DNA of 41,992 nt, taken from IMG/VR virus record IMGVR_UViG_3300034082_001128, positions 1 through 41,992 of that record. One strand, written 5' to 3'. The position numbers were made by a program, and so were the translations under genes. Below the pieces are notes generated by a model. That model worked only from the letters and a program-made list of their open reading frames with translations, searched no databases and was not told the origin of the DNA. Origin of the DNA: a virus. Positions 17 through 41,992 of this stretch are shown here, piece by piece; position 1 is the first letter of the stretch; each line of letters opens with the position of its first letter.

Positions 17-562
17 TTACTCTCCACGATACAAATCTCGCATCATAGCAATAGCGTATTCAAACGCCACACGAGCTTCGTCTCCTAGATCGTCCGTAAG
101 TGTTATACGGATGGCCATTTTCATAGCATCACCATTTTCAAAGTCGTAGAATTTACCGCTGCTAATGTGTGCTACTTGTTTCTTAATGATTTGACCACCG
201 AATAGGTCGCCCATATGACGGCAGTATAAATGCGCCTTAACCAAATGTTTACGTTCTGGATCATTTCCTAGTTTATGTAAGTATGCCTGGTACTCAAGTG
301 TAGCAGGAGTTAGATAGCAATAACTGCCGTCGTCTAATTCTAGAAAGTCTGCCAGTATGCCTTTCAGACGAGGAAGGTCTGGCATTGTGATCAGGAATCC
401 CTGACGCTGACAATACCATTCAATTGGATCGTAGATTGCCAAAAGATTGTAGAGATAATTTCTATAGTCTTGCTTTTCGATCTTGCCACTAAGCAGCATC
501 TTGGCGAACTTTGTTGTTTCTGCTTCGTGATGTAAATCACTTGTAATATCTTTTAGGCTCAT
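17..562 (-). CDS. Heme oxygenase (HO-1 type)
   Basis: The 181-aa product matches the biliverdin-producing heme oxygenase fold. It has the proximal-histidine helix near the N-terminus (HHEAETTKF, H11/H12) and the distal glycine-rich helix GDLFGGQ at about residues 118-124, equivalent to GDxSGGQ of HO-1. The family opens heme to biliverdin, CO and free iron using ferredoxin-type electrons in the cytoplasm. The ATG overlaps the clpS stop by 4 bp (ATGA), so the two are translationally coupled. Cyanophages carry HO to feed bilin synthesis, but no bilin reductase is seen here, so iron release (for the phage RNR and desaturase) or heme turnover is the more likely role. That role is inference; the family call is firm. 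Confidence 0.9.
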   Translation of the reverse strand: MSLKDITSDLHHEAETTKFAKMLLSGKIEKQDYRNYLYNLLAIYDPIEWYCQRQGFLITMPDLPRLKGILADFLELDDGSYCYLTPATLEYQAYLHKLGNDPERKHLVKAHLYCRHMGDLFGGQIIKKQVAHISSGKFYDFENGDAMKMAIRITLTDDLGDEARVAFEYAIAMMRDLYRGE

Positions 563-1413: not shown

Positions 1414-3312
1414 TTAGTCTGCCTTCTTCTCTGTGAAGCTGGCATCAACTACATCATCTGGTCCAGGTTGTGTAGGCTGCGGTTGTGCTGCCTGCTCTTT
1501 GGCCTGTTTTTTATCTAACAGTGTTTTCATTGCTGGAAAAACTTTGTTAAGCTCTTCTTTGATCTTTTCAGCATCATCACCTTTGGCTGCTGTTTCAACT
1601 GCGGCAACCACAGTTTCGATTTCTGTGATTTCCGCTTCTGTAAGCTCTGCACGGAATTCTTCAAGATCTTTTTTGACTTCGTGTACCTGCGCTTCTGCTG
1701 AATTTCTTGCATCAATCAGTTCACGTGCTTTCTTATCTGCTTCTGCATTCAACTCTGCGTCTTTGATCATAGCTTCGATTTCAGCTTCTGATAGTCCACT
1801 GTTAGATTTGATAGTGATCTTATTTTCTTTGCCTGTGGCCTTGTCTTTGGCACTGATATGCATGATACCGTTGGCATCAATGTCAAAGGTAACTTCAACT
1901 TGTGGTTGACCTCTACGTGCAGGAGCAATGCCATCTAGTTTAAATTCGCCCAACAACTTGTTGTATTGTACAATCTCACGTTCACCTTGGAACACTTTGA
2001 TATCCACAGCTGGCTGATTGTCTTCTGCTGTGGAGAATGTCTGCTGTCCTTTGGTTGGGATAGTTGTATTCTTTTGAATGATCTTCGACATCACACCGCC
2101 CATGGTCTCAATACCTAGGCTCAATGGTGTTACGTCTAGCAACAAAACGTCATTGCGATCACCACCTAGCACAGCACCTTGGATAGCAGCACCAACTGCC
2201 ACGGCTTCGTCTGGATTCACATCCTTGCGTGGCGCTTTGCCAAACAGCTTCTCAACTTCTTCTTGCACCTTAGGCATGCGTGTTTGACCACCAACAAGGA
2301 TAACTTCGTCGATGTCTGAGGCACTCACGCCTGCATCCTTGAGAGCAGTACGGCATGGCTCTAATGAACGCGAGATTAGTTCGGCAACTAATTGTTCTAG
2401 TTTGCTACGACTTAATTTTACCGCTAGATGTTTTGGACCACTTGCATCTGCTGTGATGTAAGGAAGATTGACGTCTGTCTGAGCTGAGCTTGACAATTCA
2501 ATCTTGGCTTTTTCAGCAGCGTCTTTCAACCGTTGTAGAGCCAACATGTCTTTGCTTAGATCAACACCTTGATCTTTCTTAAACTCGTCAACCAAGAAAT
2601 CCATGATGCGTTGGTCAAAGTCTTCACCACCGAGGAATGTATCTCCGTTGGTGCTTAGTACTTCGATCTGTTTGTCCCCGTCCACATTCGCGATTTCAAT
2701 GATCGATACGTCGAAAGTACCACCACCAAGGTCGTAAACAGCAATCTTCCTATCAGCTTTGTCATCTTTATCAACGCCATAAGCAAGAGCTGCCGCAGTA
2801 GGCTCGTTAATAATACGGAGTACTTCCAAGCCTGCGATTTTTCCAGCATCCTTAGTCGCTTGTCTTTGGCTGTCGTTAAAGTACGCAGGAACTGTGATAA
2901 CTGCTTGAGTAACTTCATGACCTAAATAGTCCTCTGCGGTCTGTTTCATCTTACGAAGAACTTCCGCTGAAATTTGTGGGGGTGCTAATTCTTTGCCCTG
3001 TGCTCGAACCCACGCATCACCATTAGAGTTTTCGTAGATCTCGTAGGGCATCAAGTCCAGATCTTTCTGAACTGCTTGTTCTTTAAATTTTCTACCAATC
3101 AATCTCTTGCTGGCGTAAATTGTGTTTTTAGGATTAGTTACTGCTTGACGTTTGGCTGAAGCGCCAACAACAATTTCATCTGTGGTGTAGGCTACGATTG
3201 AGGGCGTAGTTCTTGCACCTTCTGAATTTTCAATAACTTTGGATTTTCCATTCTCGATAACAGCCACGCATGAGTTGGTGGTGCCGAGGTCAATACCGAT
3301 GATCTTAGACAT
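1414..3312 (-). CDS. dnaK: DnaK, Hsp70 chaperone, full length
   Basis: 632 aa with all Hsp70 landmarks: [14 protein letters not shown] at the N-terminus, [12 protein letters not shown] near 195, [13 protein letters not shown] near 335, the interdomain linker [15 protein letters not shown] near 390, a beta-substrate domain and helical lid, and the C-terminal acidic DDVVDASF tail. It refolds or holds proteins in an ATP cycle with DnaJ and GrpE, neither of which is in the window. It is intact and looks functional. Strong SD (AAAGGAG) before the ATG, and an exact TATAAATA late box 78 nt upstream. A complete bacterial-type DnaK is uncommon in phages and is probably host-derived. Confidence 0.97.
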
Positions 3313-9306: not shown

Positions 9307-10261
9307 CACCAAAATAGGGATCGTTTTTGAGCCAATCGTAGTAATTTTGGAAACCTTGCTCCACATCAACTTTTGGATCGAAACCAAAATCTCTACGAGC
9401 GGCATCTATGTTTAGTGCGCCTCTGCTAGGAAAGTCTAAATCACGATTACCTACAATGATTTCACCCTTACCTGCAACTTTTACAGCTAAGTTGGCAGCA
9501 TCTAACAGACTATGGCTGTGACTCTTGGTAATGTTGTAAGTCTTGTTGTCTGTGTTATCCGAAAGGGCGGCAGCAACGATTCCATCTGCGGCATCATCTA
9601 CATAGGTAAAGTCTAAGGTTTCTTGGGCTCCGTTGACTTGAAGTGGTTGTCCTCGCATTGCACGGAGGATGAATTTTGAGATGACTCGGTCTTCCACATC
9701 AAGTGGCCCATAAACAGCACTGGGACGGATAATAGTATGAACAAGATTAGTACGGCGAGTATAGTCTTTGACCAGCCATTCTCCCGCGAGTTTGAGGATT
9801 CCATATTGTCCTTGTGGTTTACATTCATAATCTTCCTTTACATCGTCTTTGAAATCACCATACACCATAGACGAACTAATGTAGATGAACTTTCGAACTC
9901 CGTGTTTGGTGCTGTGATCTAAAAGATTCAGTAGACCTTCAGACATGGTTCGACTTCCGCGACCTGGGTGAGCATTAACTACCTTCTGTCGAGGAAAGCT
10001 AGCCATATGTATGACTATTTCAGGTTTGTCAACACTAAAGCACGATTCTATGGTCCATTTGTTCACTATGTCAAGGCAATAATACTTTGACAAATCCAAT
10101 CCTTGTGAACGTTGTGCTATAAGATGAGTAATTTCTTCCTGAGGAATAATATCATAGTTGGTTTTTGTATCAATGATACTTACTGTGTGACCTTGTGCCT
10201 GTAGTCTTTTGACTACGTTATGGCCGATAAGTCCTAGGCCACCTGTTACTAGAATATTCAT
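9293..10261 (-). CDS. NAD-dependent sugar epimerase/dehydratase
   Basis: 322 aa, extended SDR. The Rossmann motif is TGGLGLIG (6-13), with catalytic Ser/Thr in ISSSMVYGD and YxxxK as YGILK near residue 153. The C-terminal part binds the nucleotide sugar. Such enzymes epimerise UDP/GDP/dTDP sugars. The start overlaps the SGNH gene end by 4 bp. With the nearby glycosyltransferase it suggests modification of a surface glycan or of phage DNA/glycoprotein; substrate not readable. Confidence 0.85.
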   Translation of the reverse strand: MNILVTGGLGLIGHNVVKRLQAQGHTVSIIDTKTNYDIIPQEEITHLIAQRSQGLDLSKYYCLDIVNKWTIESCFSVDKPEIVIHMASFPRQKVVNAHPGRGSRTMSEGLLNLLDHSTKHGVRKFIYISSSMVYGDFKDDVKEDYECKPQGQYGILKLAGEWLVKDYTRRTNLVHTIIRPSAVYGPLDVEDRVISKFILRAMRGQPLQVNGAQETLDFTYVDDAADGIVAAALSDNTDNKTYNITKSHSHSLLDAANLAVKVAGKGEIIVGNRDLDFPSRGALNIDAARRDFGFDPKVDVEQGFQNYYDWLKNDPYFGVDKH

Positions 10262-10656
10262 TTTGTTTGCTCGGCAATCATTTTGTATCCTTTACCGGTT
10301 GGGTGTACACCGTCTTTAGATAAATCTGCAATCTTTACCACCCTATCGTGATGTTCATTGGCAATCTTAAATACAATGTCAGCAATATCTTTCTTATTTG
10401 CTGGTAGTATCCAATATACTCTATCAGCTTTGGTCAGCTGTCGAATAGTACGCAATTCACTTTCTGTCTTAACATACTTATGGTCATTACTACCCAAGCT
10501 GATAATAACTGTTTTAGCAACGTAAGGACTTTTACCCACATTAGTATTCAACCATTGATAACTATTGATGCCGCCTTTGGAATATGAAACACATTCCTGT
10601 CGCACTCGGGCTGTGCCTACTGCAATACTGTCGCCCATAATTAAACACTCTAACAT
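10258..10656 (-). CDS. SGNH/GDSL-like hydrolase
   Basis: 132 aa from MLECLIMGDSIAVG, chosen because GGAGGAATT precedes it. Block I GDSIAVG carries the nucleophile Ser, SLGSNDHKY is block III, and DGVHPTGKGY carries the Asp-His pair (block V). The family includes esterases and O-acetyl-sugar deacetylases. Compact for the family but all catalytic blocks are present. It is in an operon with the epimerase, pointing to glycan (de)acetylation. Confidence 0.75.
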   Translation of the reverse strand: MLECLIMGDSIAVGTARVRQECVSYSKGGINSYQWLNTNVGKSPYVAKTVIISLGSNDHKYVKTESELRTIRQLTKADRVYWILPANKKDIADIVFKIANEHHDRVVKIADLSKDGVHPTGKGYKMIAEQTK

Positions 10657-10687
10657 AATTCCTCCGAAAATTTCTATCATAAAATAT

Positions 10688-10716
10688 ACTATAACACCTT
10701 TTAAAATTTTAGTCAA
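10688..10716 (-). promoter_or_regulatory. Sigma70 promoter for SGNH-epimerase operon
   Basis: Minus strand TTGACT, 17-bp spacer, TATAGT, starting directly after the pqqA terminator. Confidence 0.55.
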
Positions 10717-10739
10717 GAGAAAGCCCACCGAAGTGGGCT
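10715..10739 (-). terminator. Rho-independent terminator after pqqA
   Basis: Minus strand AGCCCAC-TTCG-GTGGGCT followed by TTCTCTT. A 7-bp GC-rich stem with a stable TTCG loop. It isolates pqqA as a single-gene transcript. Confidence 0.8.
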
Positions 10740-10748
10740 AGGTCTTTA

Positions 10749-10820
10749 TTATCGATTCATCACGTACATAGTGATTTCAAAACCAAAGCGCATATCTGTT
10801 GCTGATGGTGTAGTCCACAT
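10749..10820 (-). CDS. pqqA: PqqA, precursor peptide of pyrroloquinoline quinone
   Basis: A 23-codon gene, easily missed. It begins MWTTPSATDMRF and ends GFEITMYVMNR. PqqA of Klebsiella and Pseudomonas type is 23-24 aa, begins MW, and has the pair Glu15 and Tyr19 that PqqE cross-links to form PQQ. Here E15 and Y19 stand at exactly those places, in the same G-x-E-x-T-x-Y frame, and the ending NR is the same. AAGGAG lies 7 nt before the ATG. A terminator follows, and a TATAAT box lies about 50 nt upstream. No pqqB-F is in the window, so host enzymes would have to process it. The short form resembles beta/gammaproteobacterial rather than alphaproteobacterial PqqA. Confidence 0.9.
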   Translation of the reverse strand: MWTTPSATDMRFGFEITMYVMNR

Positions 10821-10833
10821 AGTAGTTCTCCTT

Positions 10834-10876
10834 GTTAAAAATTTAACATACTGCATTAGTATGTATCGTTATTATA
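10834..10876 (-). promoter_or_regulatory. pqqA promoter and leader with two inverted repeats
   Basis: The minus strand has TATAAT (10871-10876) without a recognisable -35. Between it and the RBS lie CATACT-5 nt-AGTATG (10847-10863) and GTTAAA-2 nt-TTTAAC (10834-10847), which share a base. The weak -35 and adjacent dyads suggest regulated expression. Confidence 0.45.
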
Positions 10877-10963
10877 TGACAAAACCACCACAGATCATAT
10901 AGTGAAATTCATTAAAACACCATAGCGATTTTATTGATACTGGTTACGGATTCCAGCGATACC

Positions 10964-11977
10964 TTATCTTGTACCCGATTTTTCTATTAGATTATCTCTA
11001 AATATTTCCCAGGCCTTTTCCCAAGTCCAACGACCACTGCCTTCCCAAACTCGTTGTCTATCTAACATCATTGCATCGTTGACTGCCTGTTTTAAATCCT
11101 CGTTCATACAACCAGTAATGCCTTCGTCTATGACATCTAATGGACCTTGACAAGGATATGCGGCCACCGGAGTACCACAGGCCATTGCTTCAATCATTAC
11201 AAGTCCGAATGTTTCCCAACGACTTGGGAACACAAACACTTCTGCATTGGCATAATATTGAGCTAGGTCTACTCCAGTCTTGTATCCGGTAAAATGTACG
11301 TCTGGATAATGTTTCTTGTAGGTTTCCAACATAGGTCCGTCACCTACCATTACCTTGAGATATCCTGGATAGTCTAATTCGAAGAATGCTTCTAGGTTCT
11401 TTTCCTTGCTGACTCGACTTACACAGACTATATACCTGCTAACAGTTTCTACTTTATGCGTAGTATTAAAAATGTCACGATCAACACCACGAGTCCAAGA
11501 AATAATATCTCCATCAAATCCATGATCCTGTAACTCCTTGACCATTGTGTCAGTGGTGGTCAATACCTTACCACTGTGTTTATGAAACCACCGCACTAAA
11601 GGCCAAGTAAGGGCTTCAGGTATGCCAAACAGCTTTCTAATTCCTTCTGGAAACTTAGTATGATAAGCAGTGTTGTAGCAATAATTGTGTTGGTCAAGAT
11701 ATTGTCTAGCACACAGACCCAAAGGACCTTCGGTGGCGATATGGATATGATCCGGATTGATCTCCTCAAGTATCTTGCCCACTGTGCGTTTCCTGGTAAG
11801 GGTAATCTTGACTTCGTTGTAGCCAGGGCAATCAACATGGCGGAACCTCCCGGGATCAAGATATACAACACGATAGTTGTCCCGAATCGCACACGCCTCA
11901 ATATTTTTGTAGGTCGTAACCACACCATTGATCTGCTCCGGTAAGTTATCAGTTATTATAAGAATCGTCTTTGTCAT
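10964..11977 (-). CDS. Glycosyltransferase family 4 (GT-B)
   Basis: 337 aa from MTKTILIITDNLP; the 13-codon upstream extension lies inside the neighbour. The N-terminal acceptor domain has NGVVTTYKNIE. The C-terminal donor domain has CVSRVSKEKN, VGDGPMLETYKK and the EX7E motif in SRWETFGLVMIEAMACGTPVAAY (about 265-285). It resembles GDP-mannose-dependent alpha-mannosyltransferases that act on membrane lipids. It overlaps the metallophosphoesterase gene by 29 bp, and such GT/phosphoesterase pairs occur in bacterial glycolipid synthesis. Confidence 0.88.
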   Translation of the reverse strand: MTKTILIITDNLPEQINGVVTTYKNIEACAIRDNYRVVYLDPGRFRHVDCPGYNEVKITLTRKRTVGKILEEINPDHIHIATEGPLGLCARQYLDQHNYCYNTAYHTKFPEGIRKLFGIPEALTWPLVRWFHKHSGKVLTTTDTMVKELQDHGFDGDIISWTRGVDRDIFNTTHKVETVSRYIVCVSRVSKEKNLEAFFELDYPGYLKVMVGDGPMLETYKKHYPDVHFTGYKTGVDLAQYYANAEVFVFPSRWETFGLVMIEAMACGTPVAAYPCQGPLDVIDEGITGCMNEDLKQAVNDAMMLDRQRVWEGSGRWTWEKAWEIFRDNLIEKSGTR

Positions 11978-12722
11978 TCTGTTTAGTCCATGTAATAATT
12001 TCCCACGTACCATCATGATGTTCTACCAATGCAGTACAGCTTTCAACCCAATCACCGTCATTCATATACGCAACACCGTCTATCTCTTTGATCTCTGCAT
12101 GGTGTATGTGTCCACAAATGACACCATCGAAGCCACGCTTCTTACAATATGCCGCTAGATTCTTTTCAAACTGAAATATAAAGTCTACTGCTTTTTTGAC
12201 TTTATGCTTAAGAAACTTGCTAAGGCTAAAGTACCCAAAACCCATACGGCGACGAATCCAATTAAATTTATTGTTGAGGCTAAGAACAATGTCATATGCT
12301 TTATCTCCTAGGAATGCTATCCACGGTGCAAGTCTAGTAATGCCATCAAACAAGTCACCGTGTGTAACAAGATAGTGTTTACCGTCTGCACCTATGTGTT
12401 CTACTTGATTATGAATTTCTATTAGACCAAATGAGAAACCATATGGAATCATAGGTCTTAGAAATTCATCGTGATTGCCAGCTATGAATACCACACGGGT
12501 TCCACGTTTGGCGTGTCCTAGTACTCTGCGTACCACATTGGTATGGCTTTGTTTCCAGCGCCATTTGTTTTGTTGGATTTTCCAGGCATCGATGATATCT
12601 CCTACAAGATACAGCGTGTCGCATGAATTGTGTTTGAGGAAGTTATTGAGCTTGTCTGCTTGACAGTCTCGTGTGCCTAAGTGTACGTCAGAAATAAAAA
12701 TGCTACGATAAATTTTCTGCAT
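11949..12722 (-). CDS. Metallophosphoesterase, LpxH-like
   Basis: 257 aa calcineurin-like phosphoesterase with all metal motifs: SDVHLGT (D11, H13), GDIIDAW, GNHDEF, THGD, CGHIHHA. The fold and length resemble UDP-2,3-diacylglucosamine pyrophosphatase relatives, several of which act on lipid-linked or nucleotide-linked phosphates. It is first in an operon with the glycosyltransferase. The ATG is placed almost at the expected start point of a late promoter (12727-12733), so its mRNA may be leaderless. Confidence 0.85.
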   Translation of the reverse strand: MQKIYRSIFISDVHLGTRDCQADKLNNFLKHNSCDTLYLVGDIIDAWKIQQNKWRWKQSHTNVVRRVLGHAKRGTRVVFIAGNHDEFLRPMIPYGFSFGLIEIHNQVEHIGADGKHYLVTHGDLFDGITRLAPWIAFLGDKAYDIVLSLNNKFNWIRRRMGFGYFSLSKFLKHKVKKAVDFIFQFEKNLAAYCKKRGFDGVICGHIHHAEIKEIDGVAYMNDGDWVESCTALVEHHDGTWEIITWTKQNDKDDSYNN

Positions 12723-15165: not shown

Positions 15166-15195
15166 ATTATATAGTATTTCTACTAATCAGGTCAA
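15166..15195 (-). promoter_or_regulatory. Sigma70 promoter of the porin
   Basis: Minus strand TTGACC, 18-bp spacer, TATAAT, 42 nt before the ATG. The -35 abuts the tmRNA terminator's U-tract. Confidence 0.65.
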
Positions 15196-15224
15196 TAAAA
15201 AAGCGGCTACGAATAGCCGCTTTT
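15193..15224 (-). terminator. Terminator of tmRNA
   Basis: Minus strand AAAAGCGGCTA-4 nt-TAGCCGCTTTT followed by TT. An 11-bp stem and U-run. Confidence 0.85.
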
Positions 15225-15580
15225 GGTGGTTTAGGTTACAAGGTATAACTACCTCGGACCGCTGTTTTTTAGGCAGCTAGGGCAAATCTGCTTTCATTAG
15301 CAGCACCGCGAACGGTGTTACCAGTGAAGCTCATTGCGCTGAAGTCAAATGTATCTGCGTTTGCATTTACGAGTTTTGCTTGATTAACGGTCATCGCCTA
15401 CCGTGTTGCCGTCTCTATTATCTCACCCTGTCGAAACCATGGCAGGCCCATTATAAAGTACACTCAGCTTTCGCCTTGCTTCCAGAATACTCGGATCGGA
15501 GTATACTTTATGGTGGACCTGGCGGGAGTCGAACCCGCGTCCAGAATGCCTTCACTTTGAAGGGATTACAACAATTCCTT
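15225..15580 (-). ncRNA. ssrA: Circularly permuted (two-piece) tmRNA
   Basis: In transcription order the T-arm and 3' acceptor come first: GGACGCGGGTTCGACTCCCG, then the CAGGTCC acceptor strand with CCA ending at 15511. A 61-nt spacer (15450-15510) follows, then the 5' end GGGCCTG at 15449, TGGTTTCGACAGGG, and the tag frame. GGGCCTG pairs fully with CAGGTCC including the G3-U70-type wobble used by alanyl-tRNA synthetase. The spacer arms TAAAGTA and TACTTTA extend the stem, as expected in a precursor trimmed into acceptor and coding pieces. This order is known from alphaproteobacteria, some cyanobacteria and some betaproteobacteria. The 5' edge (about 15580) and coding-piece 3' edge (about 15235) are approximate. 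Confidence 0.92.
15269..15364 (-). other. tmRNA tag reading frame, possibly 31 codons
   Basis: The stop TAA is at 15269-15271 and the frame ends ...ESRFALAA, a normal ClpXP-type degron. The best resume site is TAAAT followed by GCA at 15362-15364, matching the UAnnn-GCA context of other tmRNAs. That gives a 31-residue tag starting ANADTFDFSA. A shorter tag starting AANES is conceivable but has no such context. The frame also holds the stem CACCG-TTCG-CGGTG. Confidence 0.6.
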
Positions 15581-15652
15581 ACATGAAAACTTCAATCAAA
15601 ACAAATATAACAATTAAAATTGCTACAATGATCTGATACGCTTTCATATTAT

Positions 15653-32916: not shown

Positions 32917-32947
32917 AAAGAAAAGCACCTTCGGGTGCTTTTTCTTT
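32917..32947. terminator. Bidirectional terminator
   Basis: AAAAGCACC-TTCG-GGTGCTTTT with A/T tracts on both sides, between the 90-aa gene and the convergent desaturase, whose stop it overlaps. Confidence 0.85.
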
Positions 32948-33647
32948 ATCTAACTGTGGCTAACTTAAAGAACCGCAGTATTGAAATATACATCCAACCT
33001 AGATCAAACTCCCACCACTTCTGACTGAACTTGGCATTGGCACCATCGGCATGATGATTGTTGTGTAGTTCTTCCCCACCAATCCATATAGCCCAAGGGA
33101 TGATGTTACGGCTGGTGTCTTTGGTATCTGTGTTGCGATATCCCCACCAATGGCTGAGTCCGTTGACTACACCGGCCGCCCAGAACGGAATCCATATCAT
33201 TTGAATACCCCACACAATCAGTCCCCACGGTCCAAAGAGCAAGCAGTCTATGACCAGCATTAAAAGAATACCTGAGCGACTGTGTGCGGAGTAAAGGTTG
33301 CGTTCAATCCAATCATTAGGACAGTCCTTGCTCAAGGAGTCAACCATTGCAGTGTCTTTGCTGGCTGAATGATAAAGCAATGCTCCTCCGAATAACACAC
33401 GCCAAATACCGTAGATTTGTGGACTGTGTGGATCGCCTTCTTGGTCCGAACGTTGATGATGTTTGCGATGTATGGCCACCCATTGACGAGTAATCATGCC
33501 TGTGGTTAGCCAAAGCCAGGCTCGCATAACGTGGTTAATCGCAGGGTGAAATTGCACAGCTCTATGTGTTTGGCTTCTGTGCAAATACAGAGTGACACAG
33601 GCTATAGTGATTTGTACCATCACCAGGGTGTAGATTATTATATTCAT
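32946..33647 (-). CDS. Fatty-acid desaturase (acyl-CoA delta-9 type)
   Basis: 233 aa. Histidine boxes of membrane di-iron desaturases: HRSQTHR (23-29), HRKHHQ (59-64), HNNHH near 197. Four membrane segments. Shorter than host enzymes by lacking extensions but the core is complete. It introduces a double bond into acyl chains and needs Fe and O2. Desaturases are known in some marine phages and could tune membrane fluidity during infection. Confidence 0.9.
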   Translation of the reverse strand: MNIIIYTLVMVQITIACVTLYLHRSQTHRAVQFHPAINHVMRAWLWLTTGMITRQWVAIHRKHHQRSDQEGDPHSPQIYGIWRVLFGGALLYHSASKDTAMVDSLSKDCPNDWIERNLYSAHSRSGILLMLVIDCLLFGPWGLIVWGIQMIWIPFWAAGVVNGLSHWWGYRNTDTKDTSRNIIPWAIWIGGEELHNNHHADGANAKFSQKWWEFDLGWMYISILRFFKLATVR

Positions 33648-41218: not shown

Positions 41219-41233
41219 TGTAAATAGTTGACT

Positions 41234-41992
41234 ATGATCAATAAAGCTCCCTTTAATAATCTACTCAAAACACTCAAAGACACGGGCAAATACCGTGTGT
41301 TCAACGATATTATCCGTGAAAAGGGCAAGTTTCCTTCAGCCATGTGGTACGGGCCCTATAACATCAAGAGCATCACAAACTGGTGCTCCAACGATTACTT
41401 GGGCATGGGGCAGCACAAAGTTGTGTTAGATGCCATGCACACCGCTCTAGACCACACAGGTGCGGGGTCAGGCGGTACTAGAAACATAGCAGGTACCAGC
41501 CACTATCATGTGGCTCTAGAATACGAATTAGCCACCCTGCACAACAAGGCCCGAGCTCTGCTGTTCTCATCGGCCTATGTGGCCAACGAATGGACACTGA
41601 TCGCTCTAAGTAAAATCATACCCAACATACATTTTGTTTCGGATAGTGAGAACCACAACAGCCTAGTCATTGGCATGGTTCACAGCCGAGCACCTAAAAC
41701 AGTGTTCCGTCACAACGATCTCAATCACCTAGAAGATATATTAACCAGCATACAACTCACAGGCAATGTGCCCTGTATTGTATTTGAATCAGTTTATAGT
41801 ATGGATGGCGACGTAGGACATATCCGAGAAATCTGCGACCTAGCAGACAAGTATGGTGCTATGACCTACATCGATGAAGTACATGCGGTAGGACTCTATG
41901 GACCCCACGGTGGTGGGAAAGTTGAAGAGCTAGGGCTACAATCCCGTGTTGACATAGTTAACGGTACATTAGGGAAAGCCTATGGGGTCCAA
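41234..41992 (+). CDS. hemA: 5-aminolevulinate synthase, 5' part (runs off the window)
   Basis: 253 codons are visible, the C-terminal third is outside. PLP-dependent alpha-oxoamine synthase: [75 protein letters not shown], and NGTLGKAYG just before the PLP lysine region. [16 protein letters not shown] and the very close likeness to Rhodobacter ALAS separate it from BioF and Kbl. It condenses glycine and succinyl-CoA to 5-aminolevulinate. It is divergent from the LamG gene; no clear promoter or SD was seen. Confidence 0.93.

Follow-up and report, generated by a model that had tools for sequence, protein, structure and literature searches.

Stand-alone pqqA genes in phage genomes and their probable role in the PQQ supply of methylotrophic hosts

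Why would a phage carry a gene for PqqA, the peptide whose Glu and Tyr are cross-linked by PqqE with PqqD, and have no other gene of the pathway beside it? The question is raised by a 23-codon gene in a 41,992-base IMG/VR virus record, the whole of which is called the window. The window contig is probably a fragment of a virus genome, and ribonucleotide reductase, tail, head and exonuclease genes lie on the same contig as pqqA. These phage genes, together with the complete isolates with pqqA described below, show that this metabolic gene of host type belongs to true phage genomes.

The pqqA gene of the window and its surroundings

The gene and the elements around it are given below.

10749..10820, minus strand: pqqA open reading frame, 23 codons and a stop, encoding MWTTPSATDMRFGFEITMYVMNR (translation)
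10828..10833, minus strand: Shine-Dalgarno sequence AAGGAG, 7 nt before the ATG
10846..10864, minus strand: small inverted repeat ACATACT-AATGC-AGTATGT in the presumed 5′ leader of pqqA
10871..10876, minus strand: -10 element TATAAT, conserved in syntenic relatives
10898..10916, minus strand: operator-like box TTTAATGAATTTCACTATA, 21 nt before TATAAT, predicted with a matrix of bacterial pqqA genes
10722..10739, minus strand: intrinsic terminator AGCCCAC-TTCG-GTGGGCT with a 7-bp stem, a TTCG loop and a T-rich tail
10258..10728, minus strand: GDSL-like hydrolase, downstream neighbour of pqqA in the conserved order GT4-pqqA-GDSL
10964..12016, minus strand: family 4 glycosyltransferase (GT4), upstream neighbour of pqqA in the same conserved order

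The minus-strand frame at 10749-10820 is PqqA and its identity in a phage is firmly supported; the plus strand has no open frame in translation over these positions. The original prediction had read the 23 codons as PqqA from the letters and had proposed a search against Pfam PF08042, which was run and bore the reading out with a match far over the cut-off (41.3 bits, E = 1.4e-10; cut-off 21.1 bits). The score with TIGR02107, the NCBIfam equivalog, was 38.3 bits for a cut-off of 20 bits, and a six-frame search of the record matched this frame only (E = 6.2e-11). The predicted NR end is present in the translation and so is the Glu-x3-Tyr pair of PQQ-forming residues, as Glu15 and Tyr19. A PDB search with the peptide returned no match and PHROGs has no family for phage PqqA.

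The strong Shine-Dalgarno sequence, the promoter box and the terminator of the prediction were likewise found, as AAGGAG, TATAAT and a hairpin of -15.9 kcal/mol (z = -4.05). A sigma-70 consensus scan did not list TATAAT at 10871-10876, presumably because it has no matching -35 hexamer, and the region upstream of TATAAT where the -35 match is missing is occupied by the operator-like box. Among viral pqqA genes generally, a Shine-Dalgarno sequence precedes 131 of 137 (7% of random ATGs) and a strict terminator follows 52 of 136 (5.6% after long open reading frames). The inverted repeat persists in many syntenic relatives despite variation in the leader; as an unusually stable leader hairpin it was rejected, being not unusual against shuffles.

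Several other genes of the window were also recorded. A permuted tmRNA gene (15178-15613, minus strand) fits the permuted tmRNA model and also the betaproteobacterial one; Melnitz is one of the aquatic phages for which two-piece tmRNA has been reported. A full-length Hsp70/DnaK of 632 aa (1414-3312, minus strand) is 68-74% identical to betaproteobacterial DnaK and lies near a ClpS adaptor gene (559-858). At one contig end there is a heme oxygenase (17-562, minus strand), and at the other end (41228-41992, plus strand) a PLP-dependent enzyme resembling 5-aminolevulinate synthase, whose only Pfam assignment is Aminotran_1_2; PMC11480375 describes AlaS-HemO cassettes in phages. A fatty acid desaturase gene (PF00487) is located at 32946-33647 on the minus strand.

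Distribution, constraint and candidate hosts

IMG/VR was searched with two degenerate DNA patterns of the PqqA core. In the first, D, R, G, E, T and Y were fixed, and at least 119 loci were returned; among the matches listed all 119 are short PqqA frames, ending within about one residue of the same point. Because this pattern forces Glu and Tyr, a second one left positions 15 and 19 open. It also returned at least 119 loci, and among the matches listed Glu15 is found in 119/119, Tyr19 in 118/118 readable loci, with the codon position of the stop identical in 118/118. In a set of 136 distinct coding sequences pS was 0.655 and pN 0.161, the latter being lowered because the patterns fix some residues. 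For a pattern-independent test, relatives were fetched via the neighbouring glycosyltransferase and hydrolase genes, pqqA not being asked for. Each of the two neighbour queries gave pqqA in 12 of 80 loci, mostly in the same slot; all copies found in this way keep Glu15 and Tyr19, and the 14 distinct sequences among them give a dN/dS of about 0.13. Many relatives have these neighbour genes but no pqqA, which is therefore dispensable in some hosts. The PqqA family is thus widespread in phages, where strong constraint acts on its frame and on Glu15 and Tyr19. A missing PqqA match with an unconserved frame, or common substitutions of the two residues among relatives, had been named beforehand as signs against the prediction; neither was seen, the frame and both residues being conserved in related and unrelated phages. 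Some variants occur at other positions, namely Cys at residue 16 (FECTMY, loci L352 and L415) and Ser for Arg (DMSFGFE, locus L339), and these may inform PqqD/PqqE recognition or may be sequencing errors.

Cultured phages were covered by tblastn against 50,697 phage records. The gene was found in nine Methylophilales/-aceae phage records (P19250A, Venkman, MEP301, MEP401, MEP402 and four Melnitz records) and in one spring-water phage; prevalence here refers to the records returned by the search, which did not include HIM624-A, MEP431-434 and Venkman EXVC038S, phages listed in the taxonomy. No feature is annotated at its position in P19250A, Venkman, MEP301 and MEP401, and in Melnitz-1 and the spring phage the site is annotated as a hypothetical protein on the opposite strand. 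A search with the MEP301 terminase matched no other Methylophilales phage and Melnitz is a 141-kb Kyanoviridae phage, so several unrelated lineages carry pqqA. PQQ is absent from the papers describing MEP401/402 and Venkman, and the Melnitz paper names it only as a medium component. Two records of Acinetobacter phage MD-2021a also matched and were excluded, the stretch being bacterial chromosome with pqqBCDE; public record CAKLQF020000010 of that name (L493) is bacterial chromosome at least here, with ppk and pqqBCDE.

The phage copies stand alone. Within the stretch available per locus, pqqB, pqqC or pqqE was beside viral pqqA in 0 of 179 loci, against 73 of 119 for cellular pqqA (Fisher 4e-38, the loci not being all independent), and a PQQ alcohol dehydrogenase (TIGR03075) was in 0 of 52 pqqA-bearing phage records. 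As the window is probably an incomplete contig, pqqB-E may still lie elsewhere in its virus. The PqqB-E partners are absent near the viral copies, and PqqE is present in bacteria that are host-like rather than an identified host of the window phage.

Such bacteria include six small Burkholderiales genomes (1.3-1.4 Mb) with HxlA, a RuMP enzyme, and PqqE, each over its cut-off. We infer that they are Methylophilaceae of the Methylopumilus/OM43-like kind. Each has two to three pqqA copies far from pqqE, which read MWTTPAATEMRFGFEVTMYVMNK or close variants, and the P19250A phage peptide is identical to MWTTPAATEMRFGFEVTMYVMNK. PqqE was present in 10 of 10 small genomes with pqqA and in 0 of 5 tested without it. 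Methylophilaceae are described as having 3-12 pqqA copies with the other pqq genes typically single (PMC4109929), and separate expression of pqqA copies has been reported (PMC9851590). The exact core of the window peptide, DMRFGFE[VI]TMYVMN, was in none of 399 Burkholderiales genomes. The window DnaK reaches 74% identity, the nearest of 24 genomes compared being of Rhodoferax type, and the window tmRNA fits the betaproteobacterial model. The host of the window phage is likely a methylotrophic betaproteobacterium.

An upstream box common to phage and bacterial pqqA

Bacterial pqqA genes have a palindrome TCATGA-N3-TCATGA at about -105 to -160. Its strict form was located at six distinct sites, spread over three of the Methylophilaceae-like genomes, and five of these sites precede a pqqA by about 105 bp. 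A matrix was trained on 18 bacterial boxes only, and the control level was set at the score exceeded by 1% of 1,185 control upstream regions of open reading frames. For this matrix, trained only on bacterial pqqA promoters, 10898-10916 is the best site in the whole 42 kb window. The box before the -10 element is seen in phage pqqA upstream regions, of which 56 of 151 lie over the 99% control level, clustered near -93; these counts overstate independence because most viral upstream regions (96 of 151) form one related cluster, and by sequence cluster the box is found in 9 of 39. No box was found upstream of pqqA in MEP401 and locus L397 or in methanotroph-type copies. Phage boxes mostly lie 21 nt from TATAAT and bacterial ones 41-44 nt, a difference of about two helical turns. 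The possibility that the box is a general promoter of the window phage was rejected, as it occurs once in the window.

Many betaproteobacterial-type phage pqqA genes carry the same upstream box as bacterial pqqA, and through it a host regulator probably drives the phage promoter. No published pqqA operator was found in the open-access papers searched. We tentatively propose, with somewhat less than even confidence, that in methylophages pqqA is a complete host-type regulatory cassette in which the host operator has shifted closer to the -10 element, from about 43 to 21 nt upstream of it, letting the host regulator drive the supply of the consumed PQQ substrate. If true, this would reveal a previously undescribed element of pqqA control and a strategy general to methylophages. 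The shared box also provides a handle on a bacterial regulator of PQQ synthesis.

Role of phage pqqA and comparison with known systems

The gene is probably a functional pqqA that acts as an auxiliary metabolic gene in a phage whose host is a betaproteobacterium that makes PQQ, most likely a Methylophilaceae methylotroph of fresh water, and raising PQQ supply for methanol oxidation appears to be its best-supported role. One PqqA is consumed per PQQ, so PqqA is the sole pathway member which needs continuous synthesis. When the host is shut down by the phage, its PqqB-E and methanol dehydrogenase proteins would persist and PqqA would run out; the phage would therefore bring the consumed part only and rely on host PqqB-E and dehydrogenases. 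During infection the phage peptide would be synthesised and passed from host PqqD to host PqqE, which would cross-link Glu15 with Tyr19; host enzymes would then trim it and oxidise it to PQQ. Catalysis does not use up PQQ, which is a cofactor, so a benefit would require new dehydrogenase or PQQ turnover in a slow infection. The carriage of the substrate only, in a single cassette with its residues intact and with host-type control, seems to fit a phage that refills the consumed part.

It is also possible, though unlikely, that pqqA is a passenger or moron, a self-contained cassette of promoter, reading frame and terminator of about 250 bp that is often picked up by recombination and has no dedicated role in infection. 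The several unlinked pqqA cassettes of the hosts, the box common to phage and host and the patchy occurrence among relatives would all suit such a passenger, but the strong purifying selection (dN/dS of about 0.13), the retention of pqqA at one locus across phages whose neighbour protein falls to 69-90% identity and the nine Methylophilales/-aceae records from unrelated phage groups argue against it. The original prediction had offered as its alternative that the peptide competes for PqqE/PqqD; by binding them it would reduce or divert the host's PQQ synthesis. This is now quite improbable; PqqA, the protein bound by PqqD/PqqE, is indeed the sole pathway member carried, but a decoy need not retain the cross-linked side chains, which are invariant, and the P19250A copy is identical to a bacterial peptide.

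Even less probable is a precursor or signal with a role outside PQQ that uses the same PqqD/PqqE recognition. Other modified peptides do use similar recognition, yet the peptide scores over the curated equivalog cut-off for PQQ PqqA, all constrained positions are common to phage and bacterial PqqA, and in the small genomes PqqE is present wherever pqqA is (10/10 with, 0/5 without). A misbinned bacterial fragment, an artefact which does occur as in the MD-2021a record with its pqqBCDE and ppk, has a negligible probability given the tail, head, exonuclease and ribonucleotide reductase genes on the window contig, and for the family it is excluded by the isolates, as complete genomes of cultured phages carry pqqA.

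The favoured reading, a functional gene that raises PQQ supply, has a precedent. No established role of PqqA in phages was known to the original prediction, and this has to be corrected, since a Lake Baikal phage with PqqA and a methanol dehydrogenase was described by Coutinho et al. in 2020 and the same role was proposed (PMC7678222). That phage population, VP_266, and the present phages both have a phage PqqA, and the host is of Methylophilaceae type, probably so for the window phage; in VP_266 PqqA accompanies methanol dehydrogenase, whereas in the window and the 51 other records searched pqqA is without one. A reservoir study of 2026 lists viral pqqA, pqqD and pqqE (PMC13188868), and further reports of phage pqqA were not found in the open-access papers searched. 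New points are how broadly pqqA occurs in phages, that it stands alone there, that cultured phages have it, and that its operator is shared with bacteria. This 23-codon metabolic gene was missed by standard annotation; it is carried by the cultured Methylophilales phages whose records the search found, and by well over a hundred phage contigs from the environment. This suggests that PQQ supply, and not the dehydrogenase itself, is what these phages must protect in methanol-oxidising cells, and cultured phage-host pairs are now available for a direct test of this idea.

Phage PqqA is like bacterial PqqA (PF08042/TIGR02107) in sequence, length, the Glu-x3-Tyr pair and the C-terminal NR/NK, and stand-alone copies are common to phages and Methylophilaceae; unlike the bacterial family, the phage copy sits in a phage genome with no pqqBCDE near. 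Cyanophages carry the photosystem genes psbA/psbD and freshwater phages carry pmoC, which likewise replace one fast-consumed or limiting part of the host energy system. These genes encode enzyme subunits, whereas phage pqqA encodes a 23-residue ribosomal cofactor precursor.
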